Shown here: piece after piece, positions 61,031-63,967 of the stretch
How the letters are laid out: the number at the start of each line of letters is the position of its first letter
Numbering within the stretch: position 1 is the stretch's first letter
Source: Bacteroidia bacterium
Lineage (GTDB): Bacteria; Bacteroidota; Bacteroidia; B-17B0; Aurantibacillaceae
Direction of reading: 5' to 3'
Assembly (NCBI GenBank): GCA_018000995.1
Contig: JAGNIU010000009.1
Span: 1 to 64,000 of the forward strand
DNA length: 64,000 nucleotides
Translations under genes and position numbers: made by a program
The notes under the pieces: generated by a model
Seen by the model: the letters and a program-made list of their open reading frames with translations, nothing else
Database searches by the model: none
What the model was told of the DNA's origin: nothing

Positions 61031-61166
61031 CTACCCCCTCCCCCGCAAGCGGGGACTCCCCCTTAAAAAAGGGGGAGAGTTGTTTTATCATCCAAAATTA
61101 ATTTATTGCACAAAAAACTTCTCCCCTTTTTTAAGGGGAGATGTCACGAAGTGACAGAGGGGTTTA
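61031..61166. repeat. Two inverted copies of a two-hairpin repeat element
   Basis: Right copy (plus, about 61117-61166): CTCCCC-TTTTTTAA-GGGGAG (61121-61140), then the palindrome TGTCACGAAGTGACA (61142-61156), then GAGGGG. Left copy (read on minus, 61085-61031): CTCCCCC-TTTTTTAA-GGGGGAG (61077-61056), then CCCCGCTTGCGGGG (61054-61041), then GAGGGGG. The first hairpin is conserved, the second differs in sequence but stays palindromic, and the end block (A)GAGGGG is constant. A third copy is at 63551-63605. No gene lies in 61017-61214. Confidence 0.75.
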
Positions 61167-61214
61167 ACTTATATCCTCAATTTTTCGTCGTATATTTATT
61201 AAAATCCTCAACGG

Positions 61215-61667
61215 ATGCCGCAATTTTTTCTAATAGTACTTTTCTTTCTTCTGCGGTCACAGATAGCTTTCGCGCAAACCGGTTACAAAGAAGTTGATAC
61301 CGTTAAGTATTCAAAAAGCGAAATCATCACAAATATAAATGGCTTTAAAACTGTTGTATTCTATAAAGATAATTCCATCCGAAAAATTACCCGCGAATTT
61401 ATCGGAACTGGTTTTAGTTCAACCACAATTTATTATATAGCGAATGACCAGCTCATTCATAATGTGTTTGTCTCGAAACGTAGTCCGAATGATTATTTTG
61501 AAGAGCACATGTATTTTGCTGATAAAAAAATGACGAAGTGGTATAACACCAAAAACAAAGATGTGAATTGGGATCAGGAATCATATTCTATTAAGGAAAA
61601 ACTAGCTCTTAATTTTTTTGAAGTGGATTTGAAAGAGGCTAAGACGAAGAAACCAATAAGGCAATAA
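61215..61667 (+). CDS. Small secreted protein, unknown function
   Basis: 150 residues with a signal peptide (IVLFFLLRSQIAFAQ). The mature domain is beta-rich and charged (FKTVVFYKDNSIRKITREFI, YYIANDQLIHNVFVSKR, YFADKKMTKWYNTKNKDV). No family recognised. A -7-like TATATTTA (61191-61198) lies 16 bases before the ATG, directly after the two-hairpin repeat pair. Probably a single-gene unit. Confidence 0.7.
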   Translation: MPQFFLIVLFFLLRSQIAFAQTGYKEVDTVKYSKSEIITNINGFKTVVFYKDNSIRKITREFIGTGFSSTTIYYIANDQLIHNVFVSKRSPNDYFEEHMYFADKKMTKWYNTKNKDVNWDQESYSIKEKLALNFFEVDLKEAKTKKPIRQ

Positions 61668-61670
61668 TCA

Positions 61671-61701
61671 TTTGCAATCCATTATTTTATTTCTACTTTT
61701 A
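61671..61701 (+). promoter_or_regulatory. Promoter of the YoaK-like gene
   Basis: TTTG (61671-61674), 19 bases, TACTTTTA (61694-61701), again with GCAATC after -33 and TTTTATTTC before -7. It begins 3 bases past the preceding stop. Confidence 0.55.
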
Positions 61702-61732
61702 TAGTGTATTTCATCCGCCATTCCTTTCTATT

Positions 61733-62434
61733 ATGTTTAAACATCACGGTAGTACACGGACATTAAAGCACAATTTAAAAATTGCGTCTTTATTATCTTT
61801 CGTAGCCGGTATTGTTAATGTCGCCGGATTTTTAGCTGTAGCGCGTTTAACTACAAATGTCACCGGTCATTTTGCTTTTTTTGTGGATGAAGTATTTAAG
61901 CTCGAATTTTTAAACGCTTTTGTTTTCTTTCTTTATATATTTTTCTTTTTTCTCGGCTCTTTCGTGTCGCACTTTTTAATTGAATGGATTTCTCGGCGGA
62001 ATGAAAATTACGTCTATATAATTCCGACTATCCTCGAAAGTGTTATTTTAATTGGCATTGCTTTATTTGGACATTCTTTAATATTACAAAATCCGGATAT
62101 ATTAGCCTTTCTTTTACTTTTTGCAATGGGACTTCAAAATTCGTTAGTCACCACCATCTCAAATTCTGCAGTAAGAACAACACATTTAACAGGTTTATTT
62201 ACTGATTTAGGTATTGATCTGTCCCAATTATTTTTCTATAAAGAAAAAGGCCAAAGAGAGAAACTTTACGCGTCCATAAAATTGCGACTAAGTATTATAA
62301 GTTTCTTTTTTATTGGTGGTATTATCGGTGGCGTGTTCTATCCTTATATTGAACTCTATGTGTTATTAATAGCAGGTTGCAGCCTATTACTTGGCATTCT
62401 GCTTGATAACATTGCCATGAAGAAGAAGCTTTAG
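61733..62434 (+). CDS. YoaK/DUF1275 family membrane protein
   Basis: 233 residues with six hydrophobic segments. Family motifs: SLLSFVAGIVNVAGFLAVAR, LTTNVTGHFAFF, AMGLQNSLVTTISNSAVRTT with HLTGLFTDLGIDL. DUF1275 proteins are inner-membrane proteins of unknown substrate, sometimes thought to be transporters. Its own promoter is upstream. The ArsR-AHSA1 pair follows after 140 bases that hold the ArsR operator. Confidence 0.9.
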   Translation: MFKHHGSTRTLKHNLKIASLLSFVAGIVNVAGFLAVARLTTNVTGHFAFFVDEVFKLEFLNAFVFFLYIFFFFLGSFVSHFLIEWISRRNENYVYIIPTILESVILIGIALFGHSLILQNPDILAFLLLFAMGLQNSLVTTISNSAVRTTHLTGLFTDLGIDLSQLFFYKEKGQREKLYASIKLRLSIISFFFIGGIIGGVFYPYIELYVLLIAGCSLLLGILLDNIAMKKKL

Positions 62435-62504
62435 AAAGTCGTTTCTACATTACCCCTCAAAATTTATTCGTTACAAACCAAGCACTTAGGCTTATTTATA
62501 CAAC

Positions 62505-62558
62505 TAAATTTGTGCAACCGATTAATTGCACATATATTTGCTACCGATTAGTTGCACA
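62505..62558 (+). promoter_or_regulatory. Operator and promoter of the ArsR-AHSA1 operon
   Basis: TGTGCAA (62511-62517), 8 bases, TTGCACA (62526-62532) is a perfect inverted repeat. A second partial copy (CTACCGATTAGTTGCACA, 62541-62558) repeats its right half as a direct repeat. TTTG (62509-62512), 20 bases, TATATTTG (62533-62540) is an exact promoter lying between them, 35 bases before the ATG, so a bound ArsR-type dimer would block it. Confidence 0.65.
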
Positions 62559-62574
62559 TTAATACAATTTACAA

Positions 62575-62898
62575 ATGAGAAGAGATGTTTTTCAAGCCAT
62601 AGCCGACCCTACCCGCCGAGCTATTTTAACTTTGATTGCAATCCAGGCCATGACGCCAAATGCAATTGCCGATCATTTTAAAAGCAGTCGGCAAGCGGTT
62701 TCAAAACACATTCAAATATTAAGTGAATGTGAACTCGTAAAACAAAAACAACAAGGTCGCGAAATATACTATCATCTCAATCCGCAAAAAATGAAAGAAG
62801 TAGATAAATGGCTCGAACAATTCCGCGCTATGTGGGAACAAAAATTCGACAGCTTAGACAAACTATTAGTAAAAATGCAATCTAAAAACAAAAAATAA
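62575..62898 (+). CDS. ArsR-family transcriptional regulator
   Basis: 107-residue winged-helix repressor. The family start [20 protein letters not shown], recognition region [19 protein letters not shown] and wing [18 protein letters not shown] are clear. It lacks the Cys pair of metal-sensing ArsR proteins (no ELCVCDL motif), so it belongs to the metal-free class that is paired with AHSA1/SRPBCC genes. It precedes such a gene by 26 bases. The double repeat upstream (62511-62558) is its likely operator, giving autoregulation. Confidence 0.92.
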
Positions 62899-62924
62899 TA
62901 TTTAAGAATTAAATAAATAAAATC

Positions 62925-63422
62925 ATGAGCAAACAAACTGTTTACAAAAAAGACCTTGCTAAAAAGCAATTAATTATTACCCGCGAATTCGCTGCACCTG
63001 TTGAATTAGTATGGCGTGCGTGGACCGACCCTGAATTACTTTCAGAATGGTGGGCACCAAAACCATGGAAGGCCCATACTGTTAGTATGGATTTTAAAGT
63101 TGGCGGAAGCTGGTTGTATTATATGGAAGGTCCCGCCGGAGAAAGACATTATTGTCGCGCCGATTATACTAGTATCACGCCTTATAAAAATTATCAAGGC
63201 TTTGACGCTTTTTGTGATGATAAAGGAAATATCAATAAGGATTTTCCGAGTACAATATGGAATGTAACATTCCAATCAACAGAAACAGGAACTTTAGTTT
63301 TAGTTGAAAATACATTTAAAGAAGTAGCCGACATGCAAAAAATTATTGACCTTGGCTTCGAGCAAGGCTTCGCCATGGCACATTCTAATTTAGATGAAGT
63401 ATTAGCGAAATATAAAGCGTAA
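62925..63422 (+). CDS. AHSA1/SRPBCC-domain protein
   Basis: 165 residues with the START/Bet v1-like fold of the AHSA1 (DUF1801-neighbour) group: LIITREFAAPVELVWRAWTD, LLSEWWAPKPWKAHTVSMDF, VGGSWLYYMEGPAGERHYC, and C-terminal LGFEQGFAMAHSNLDEVLAK. These proteins have a hydrophobic cavity for a small ligand; the ligand is unknown. Second gene of the ArsR-regulated operon. Start ATG 62925 follows the ArsR stop by 26 bases. Confidence 0.9.
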   Translation: MSKQTVYKKDLAKKQLIITREFAAPVELVWRAWTDPELLSEWWAPKPWKAHTVSMDFKVGGSWLYYMEGPAGERHYCRADYTSITPYKNYQGFDAFCDDKGNINKDFPSTIWNVTFQSTETGTLVLVENTFKEVADMQKIIDLGFEQGFAMAHSNLDEVLAKYKA

Positions 63423-63550
63423 AAAGATAAAAGTATAGATCACAATTCTTTTGCGATAATTTAAGTGAGCATATTATAAATTTGGTATCAACCCGATGCT
63501 AAATTGTACTGAGAAAATAAACTTCCACTTTTTAAACACAAATAAAACTT

Positions 63551-63605
63551 CTCCCCTTTTTTAAAGGGGAGAAAGTCTATCCCGATTTATCGGGAAGACA
63601 GAGGG
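63551..63605. repeat. Third copy of the two-hairpin repeat, overlapping the DUF559 gene end
   Basis: CTCCCC-TTTTTTAAA-GGGGAG (63551-63571), then TCCCGAT/ATCGGGA (63580-63595), then GACAGAGGGG (63597-63606). The second palindrome differs from those at 61041 and 61142 but keeps its symmetry. The DUF559 stop codon (63587-63589) and its last codons lie inside it. Confidence 0.75.
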
Positions 63606-63967
63606 GTCTGTTTGAAACCCTCCTTTATATGAAGTAGCACGTCCTCATGCCTGTCAAACACCAGTTGATTCTCTATACGAATTATAGTAATACCTTTGTT
63701 TTTAAGAAACGTATCACGTTTTTCATCGTGCAATAAACCTTGAACTGTAAAATGATGCGCTCCATCTAATTCAATAGTTAATTTTTCTGACGGGCAATAA
63801 AAACCCAAAATATAATCTCCAACAGAAAATTGTCTTCTGAATCTTCTTCCTTCAAGTTGTGGATTTTTAAGAGAACGCCAGAGAACCGCTTCAGCCGGAG
63901 TTAAATTGCCTCTTAAATATTTCCTATTATCAACGGCCGACTTTACATTGTAATATTTCGTTTTCAT
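63587..63967 (-). CDS. DUF559 family endonuclease-like protein
   Basis: 126 residues from ATG 63967 (an in-frame TTG at 63988 lies upstream of the promoter box and is rejected). DUF559 proteins share the PD-(D/E)XK/Vsr-like nuclease fold. Visible: LRGNLTPAEAVLWRSLKNPQ, EGRRFRRQFSVGDYI, LTIELDGAHHFT (with Glu and the His after DG) and KGITIIRIENQLVF. The usual (V/L)-D-FYC motif after DYI is here ILGFYC: the expected catalytic Asp is Gly, so the enzyme may be inactive or use a shifted residue. The last codons (TPLSSR and stop) are read from a two-hairpin repeat copy. No methyltransferase partner is seen. Window edge is near its start. Confidence 0.83.
   Translation of the reverse strand: MKTKYYNVKSAVDNRKYLRGNLTPAEAVLWRSLKNPQLEGRRFRRQFSVGDYILGFYCPSEKLTIELDGAHHFTVQGLLHDEKRDTFLKNKGITIIRIENQLVFDRHEDVLLHIKEGFKQTPLSSR

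Follow-up and report, generated by a model that had tools for sequence, protein, structure and literature searches.

A standalone DUF559 nuclease gene and its palindromic repeats: a candidate REP/RAYT-like partnership in bacteria

Near the end of a 64,000-nucleotide stretch of a Bacteroidia bacterium genome (contig JAGNIU010000009.1, positions 1 to 64,000; hereafter the window), three copies of a composite palindromic repeat accompany a small gene for a standalone DUF559 (PF04480) protein, and the third copy supplies the last six codons and the stop codon of that gene. Is this a coincidence, or do the repeat and the gene belong together? The initial annotation, which had placed the three copies correctly and had noticed the shared 3′ end, proposed that DUF559 serves these repeats as REP-associated tyrosine transposases (RAYTs) serve repetitive extragenic palindromic sequences (REPs). 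We favor this proposal, which is supported by the enrichment of repeats at DUF559 genes, the orientation of repeat units towards the gene, the co-varying arms of a second hairpin, the pairing of repeat and nuclease lineages, and the lack of repeats near Y1 transposase genes. With a probability of about 0.6, the window represents one instance of a widespread, REP/RAYT-like partnership between a standalone DUF559 nuclease, hydrolytic and unrelated to RAYTs, and its cognate palindromic repeat.

The coincidence recurs, with a different repeat, within the source genome itself (G000; 3.61 Mb in 77 contigs). A genome scan retrieved only two DUF559 genes, both standalone, and both end inside a repeat, each of a different family. 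In the window, the repeat end ACCCCTCTGTCTTCCCGATAA, contributed by the second hairpin and the terminus of copy 3, is read on the minus strand as the codons T-P-L-S-S-R-stop, so that in the protein tail KQTPLSSR-stop the portion TPLSSR-stop is repeat sequence. The second gene (contig C64) ends ...GAC ATC CCC CGC TCC ACC TAA inside a unit of a family that terminates in ACATCCCCC/GGGGGATGT, and sister units flank this gene on both sides.

DUF559 is present in 58 of the 87 genomes of the order; approximately 60 standalone genes were retrieved and their flanks read, and 50 were scored with neighboring open reading frames (ORFs) as controls. A pattern-free comparison of the 5′ flank with the reverse complement of the 3′ flank found inverted flanks at 19 of 50 DUF559 genes versus 5 of 347 controls. 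A grammar test, which looks for a C-rich stem-loop plus a C-run terminus pointing at the gene, found such a unit at 38 of 50 genes versus 6 of 244 controls. We then have an independent cross-phylum set of 80 loci, obtained by scanning the collection with a six-sequence alignment and covering Bacteroidota, Planctomycetota, Chlorobiota, Neomarinimicrobiota, Bacillota, Desulfobacterota, Nitrospirota, Patescibacteria, Chloroflexota, and others; as the ranking followed similarity to a single DUF559 subfamily, the set samples the family unevenly. Here, the pattern-free test gave 37 of 78 DUF559 genes versus 11 of 357 controls (p = 2.7e-22), and the grammar test, devised after the order set and the first cross-phylum test were known and on which the pattern-free test does not depend, gave 64 of 78 versus 13 of 358 (p = 2e-49). 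After merging syntenic loci, gene-facing units remained at 23 of 34 loci in the order (p = 4e-20) and at 50 of 61 across phyla (p = 1e-41), and control genes of the same loci carried facing units in 2-4% of cases. The enrichment of DUF559 3′ ends and flanks in repeats, anticipated by the initial annotation, therefore goes far beyond chance. The minimum folding energy of the 3′ flank gave only a weak distinction between DUF559 genes and controls (p = 0.007). Because large multidomain DUF559 proteins had a unit at the 3′ end in 0 of 23 cases, the link to the repeats belongs to the standalone genes.

The same association is apparent when starting from the repeats. Among 157 repeats from 15 genomes, 35 are no more than 300 bp away from a DUF559 gene (0.13 expected) and 40 are within 600 bp of the 48 DUF559 genes, whereas none of the 157 lies within 600 bp of the 42 Y1_Tnp (RAYT-type) genes; Y1_Tnp genes occur in 18 of 19 genomes examined. 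In family A, four DUF559 genes are flanked by 8 of the 25 exact copies; in family B, 5 of 11 are found at DUF559 (including one DUF559 pseudogene), and in family D, 3 of 4. G003 (a single contig) and G017 each have just two exact copies of family C, and G087 has just two of family E; in all three, these are the two flanks of a DUF559 gene, while a Pontibacter genome (G091) holds 56 copies and 4 DUF559 genes. Units and standalone DUF559 genes also co-occur across the genomes of the order (25 with both, 9 with units only, 11 with the gene only, 42 with neither; p = 1e-6), including when genomes whose only copies are the flanks are set apart (18, 9, 18, and 42; p = 0.0015), although this test leans towards association because the patterns were derived from DUF559-linked units.

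In the plasmid collection, the same arrangement was found in Sinorhizobium meliloti, Sphingomonas, Deinococcus, and Picosynechococcus. The S. meliloti gene (pSymB, L233) is flanked by two near-identical dimers of 108-130 bp, ~97% alike, which rank first and second among 153 matches on the replicon; their likeness suggests recent conversion or recent arrival. In Picosynechococcus PCC 7002, the DUF559 gene ends GCCCC-TAG within a unit. The arrangement was not seen in E. coli, and N. gonorrhoeae has a degenerate 5′ unit at most.

Across genomes, a unit consists of a C-rich stem-loop and a short C-run terminus on one side only, separated by a few bases or by a second, freely varying hairpin. Terminus and stem have the same number of C residues in 83% of 152 units, compared with 37% after permutation (permutation maximum 53%), and the two run lengths are correlated (Spearman 0.78); all full units checked in the source genome obey this rule. 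Scattered copies occur singly or as outward-facing dimers. All 12 intervals that contain a DUF559 gene are bordered by inward-facing units, whereas close repeat pairs without a gene face outward in 16 of 20 cases, indicating that the gene sits between units and not within an outward-facing element. Units are as frequent 5′ of DUF559 as 3′, and the hairpins lie close to both start and stop codons. Upstream of one DUF559 gene (L088, genome G052), the loop of a repeat stem carries an additional palindrome, TCCCGATAGCTATCGGGA, as an insertion relative to the related genome G053. In one genome with two DUF559 genes, a similar short palindrome (TGCTATATTTCATAGCA / TGCTACGAAATATAGCA) precedes each DUF559 gene (L018, 3500-3520; L019, 4361-4382) and is possibly an operator.

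Repeat and nuclease also appear to have evolved together. Similarity between repeat units tracks similarity between DUF559 proteins (Mantel r = 0.25, 0 of 2000 permutations), and where a genome has two or three DUF559 genes (G000, G053, G054, and G074), each gene carries a different unit; several of these units are identical to the one found at the closest DUF559 relative from a different genome. Each DUF559 lineage thus has its own repeat, even within one genome. For the most part, the gene behaves as if inherited vertically, since in several groups different species have it at syntenic loci, and a decayed remnant persists in G004. Cassettes can nonetheless insert, because DUF559 and its repeats interrupt conserved operons in Sphingomonas parapaucimobilis (sufB-DUF559-sufC, L234) and Deinococcus psychrotolerans (paaD-DUF559-paaZ, L238). 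A search of syntenic loci for empty sites returned one apparent tandem duplication and one clean presence/absence case, in which a 170-bp stretch with a full dimer is present at one of two loci (L174 and L178) and missing from the other.

The repeat of the window can be described in these terms (Table 1). Copies 1 and 2 together make up an outward-facing dimer (61033-61163), with a spacer of ~43 nucleotides between the stems, CTCCCCC...GGGGGAG in copy 1 and CTCCCC...GGGGAG in copy 2, whereas copy 3 is solitary. Another complete dimer is located immediately beyond the end of the window, at ~64060-64269 of the contig (C45), upstream of the DUF559 gene. The hairpin CTCCCC...GGGGAG reported by the initial annotation is indeed present, but its form is not fixed: the stem exists in four-C and five-C versions and the end motif follows, so that the supposedly constant end GAGGGG holds for four-C units (as GAGGGGT) and is replaced by GAGGGGGT in five-C units. 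The exact four-C hairpin pattern has 27 matches in the source genome, versus 0 for the same pattern read backwards; at least 15 five-C units are also present, and the 15 five-C halves checked all end GAGGGGGT. The second hairpin varies in sequence between copies and is self-complementary within each, as had been noticed, and its arms do co-vary: its mean folding energy is -11.8 with its own arms versus -5.5 with arms exchanged between copies (p = 1.4e-7), and, for the five-C halves, -6.5 versus -2.6 (p = 7e-5). Two relatives share an orthologous copy whose second hairpin differs between them on both arms together (GTCCTGCGGAC versus GTCACTACGTGAC). No Rfam family scored above threshold at the window repeats.

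Table 1 Repeat units and DUF559 features of the window.
Feature	Position	Strand	Details
Copy 1, left half of the outward-facing dimer (from sequence)	61033..61077	-	Five-C runs ACCCCCTC ... CTCCCCCTTAAAAAAGGGGGAG, reverse orientation; terminus ACCCCCTC; small hairpin CCCCGC/GCGGGG; stem CTCCCCCTT...AAGGGGGAG (five-C form)
Copy 2, right half of the dimer with copy 1 (from sequence)	61121..61163	+	Stem CTCCCCTTTTTTAAGGGGAG 61121-61140; hairpin TGTCAC/GTGACA 61142-61156; terminus GAGGGGT 61157-61163
Copy 3, solitary unit	63551..63607	+	Overlaps the DUF559 gene 3′ end; stem CTCCCCTTTTTTAAAGGGGAG 63551-63571; hairpin GTCT-TCCCGAT...ATCGGGA-AGAC 63575-63599; terminus GAGGGGT 63601-63607
Standalone DUF559 (PF04480) gene	63587..63967	-	126 aa; ATG at 63967; Pfam E 1.1e-25
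Gly55 codon GGT	63803..63805	-	Predicted catalytic position, otherwise acidic

Between the dimer and copy 3, the window contains ordinary neighbors (62575-63422), an ArsR-type regulator gene followed by an AHSA1-domain gene.

The DUF559 family profile matches 3hrl (E 2e-29), the homing endonuclease I-Bth0305I (3r3p, E 1.5e-5), and PvuRts1I. An AlphaFold2 model of the window protein (pLDDT, the predicted local distance difference test, of 85) resembles 3hrl (Z 15.3), I-Bth0305I (Z 11.9), and Vsr (1cw0, Z 10.3), and on this basis the protein is assigned to the Vsr/EDxHD branch of the PD-(D/E)XK nuclease fold. The putative active-site residues (acidic, His) are kept in nearly all of 129 homologues. 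At position 55, these have Asp in 127 cases, Glu in one, and Gly in one, the window copy; the corresponding Asp is intact in the C64 protein. The window copy may thus be catalytically dead, given the loss of this Asp, or Gly55 may be an assembly error. At other loci of the order (L110, L111, and L112), some N- and C-terminal tails of DUF559 look repeat-encoded, such as SPLVEGCPQDGVV, which makes the annotated lengths of these proteins unreliable. On two cyanobacterial plasmids (L227 and L231), DUF559 domains are found beside genes of the bacteriophage exclusion (BREX) system (brxC and pglX), one of them within a very large ORF, which we regard as a defense-related use of the domain.

We infer that DUF559 mobilizes the repeats. 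In such a mechanism, the nuclease would recognize the folded repeat and cut at its terminus, and replication or repair would then copy the unit, probably as an outward dimer, into new sites; the gene itself would mostly stay put, as in REP/RAYT systems, and the flanking units might also lower DUF559 expression. In the window, the nuclease copy would be an apparently dead one with its repeats left behind. In its broader form, the proposal is that of a second, independently evolved REPtron-like system across phyla, in which DUF559 mobilizes or gene-converts its own repeats and the C-run match acts as the recognition rule; we hold this to be an even bet.

Several observations weigh against the partnership. 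About one fifth of the DUF559 genes have no facing unit under the grammar used, and many genomes hold a modest number of copies, often 1-10 exact matches. The co-occurrence expected from the initial annotation held for 25 of the 34 repeat-bearing genomes of the order and failed in the other 9, which have no standalone DUF559 gene. The sole presence/absence locus has no clear target-site duplication, so that a deletion is possible, and the DUF559 protein of the window itself has lost an otherwise near-invariant Asp. We know of no strand-transfer chemistry in hydrolytic nucleases; copying would therefore need host repair. Finally, the binding, cutting, and movement of repeats are what we infer rather than what we observed.

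The main rival explanation reverses the roles of gene and repeat: a selfish DUF559 cassette, similar to a homing endonuclease gene, would have inserted between units and would spread by cutting empty palindromic sites, the repeats being targets and not passengers. Proximity to a phage homing endonuclease (I-Bth0305I, 3r3p; E 1.5e-5, Z 11.9) fits such a cassette, as do the inward-facing units at 12 of 12 gene intervals, which insertion into a palindromic site would produce, the interrupted suf and paa operons, and the S. meliloti flanks as the top two of 153 replicon matches. Yet the repeats far outnumber the genes and vary independently of them (27 versus 2 in the source genome; 56 versus 4 in G091), scattered dimers are not filled by DUF559, the loci are syntenic between species, and gene-less close pairs mostly face outward, the opposite of the expected empty site. 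We consider homing unlikely, if still a serious contender. Under autoregulation or genome maintenance, DUF559 would be a Vsr-like repair nuclease for mismatched or folded DNA, the hairpins would regulate its mRNA or be its housekeeping substrates, and no repeats would spread at all. The position of hairpins near start and stop codons agrees with this view, and a precedent exists in Caulobacter, where the DUF559 protein VsrA, a proposed Vsr-like nuclease, is required for the DNA-damage response when a cytosine methylase is missing (PMC12907096). However, regulation of an mRNA needs neither flanks drawn from a dispersed family, nor a fixed orientation, nor a match to the nuclease lineage, all of which we observed, and we find this explanation improbable.

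Two further explanations do without any role of DUF559. If RAYT/IS200-type Y1 transposases had spread the repeats, with DUF559 merely located in repeat-rich intergenic regions, the near-ubiquity of Y1_Tnp genes (18 of 19 genomes) would be accounted for, but not the distribution of the repeats (0 of 157 within 600 bp of the 42 Y1_Tnp genes versus 40 of 157 for the 48 DUF559 genes) or the scarcity of facing units at control genes of the same loci; such spread is very improbable, and a RAYT/Y1 transposase was rejected as the partner since no repeats lie near Y1_Tnp genes. A reading of the hairpins as ordinary intrinsic terminators, or as inverted repeats that arose by chance, is scarcely tenable. 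Every one of them forms a G+C-rich stem-loop close to a stop codon, as a terminator would, but 5′ units are as frequent as 3′ units, and the terminus rule and the multi-copy families are left unexplained. Terminators were ruled out because a T-run is rare: at least three of the four bases that follow the hairpin are T in only 2 of 74 3′ units.

No earlier report linking DUF559 to repeats was found in the open-access literature (subscription papers and most preprints were outside the search), which points to a partnership so far undescribed. If true, it would provide a mobilizer for many palindromic repeat families without an assigned one, a role for DUF559, a Pfam family still named for its unknown function, and a transposase-free route for repeat spread. 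With a lineage-specific nuclease partner and a readable recognition rule, the question is testable in tractable strains, among them Picosynechococcus PCC 7002, S. meliloti, Flavobacterium, and Pontibacter.

The closest known parallel is the REPtron, composed of tnpAREP and REP, BIME, or REPIN sequences, in which a gene bordered by cognate palindromes has dispersed copies and family-specific partners (PMC8266576, PMC3733652). As in REP/RAYT systems, the DUF559 gene is bordered by inverted cognate palindromes, many dispersed non-autonomous copies exist, often as dimers, a genome may contain several repeat families, each with its own partner gene (here G000, G053, G054, and G074), the partner is mostly present in few copies and without signs of frequent movement, and the repeat is a hairpin with a short unpaired tag. 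REPtrons have also been reported missing from some REP-bearing species (PMC3733652). In contrast, the partner here is a PF04480 protein, a hydrolytic nuclease of the Vsr/EDxHD fold, instead of an HUH Y1 (IS200/IS605-like) transposase, the tag is a C-run matching the stem instead of GTAG, and a second freely varying hairpin may lie between tag and stem. Because enzyme class and tag differ, the DUF559 system, found in many phyla and mainly in Bacteroidota in this sample, is not a member of REP/RAYT.

Other repeat families provide partial parallels. CGTC-tagged REPs are short palindromes of many phyla, often dimeric and reported without a dedicated transposase (Di Nocera et al. 2013, PMC3733652); some of our units contain CCCCGTC-hairpin-GAC, a likeness by description, whereas the published families combine stems of 8-9 bp with an unpaired CGTC tag and CCA tails (PMC3733652). 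The S. meliloti DUF559 dimers resemble, by description, the Rhizobium-specific intergenic mosaic elements (RIMEs), which are intergenic palindrome mosaics of rhizobia and for which no linked nuclease was found in the open-access literature. I-Bth0305I shares the EDxHD/Vsr-like nuclease fold (Z 11.9) but is a phage mobile-intron protein, whereas no intron was seen here and the repeats are dispersed and multi-copy. Lastly, the outward dimers resemble miniature inverted-repeat transposable elements mobilized by an insertion sequence partner, as they have the look of small elements whose inverted ends read ACCCC...GGGGT; the one presence/absence locus of the DUF559 repeats showed no clear target-site duplication, and, unlike the genes of insertion sequences, DUF559 lies beside or between the elements, never inside outward-facing ends (12 of 12 inward).

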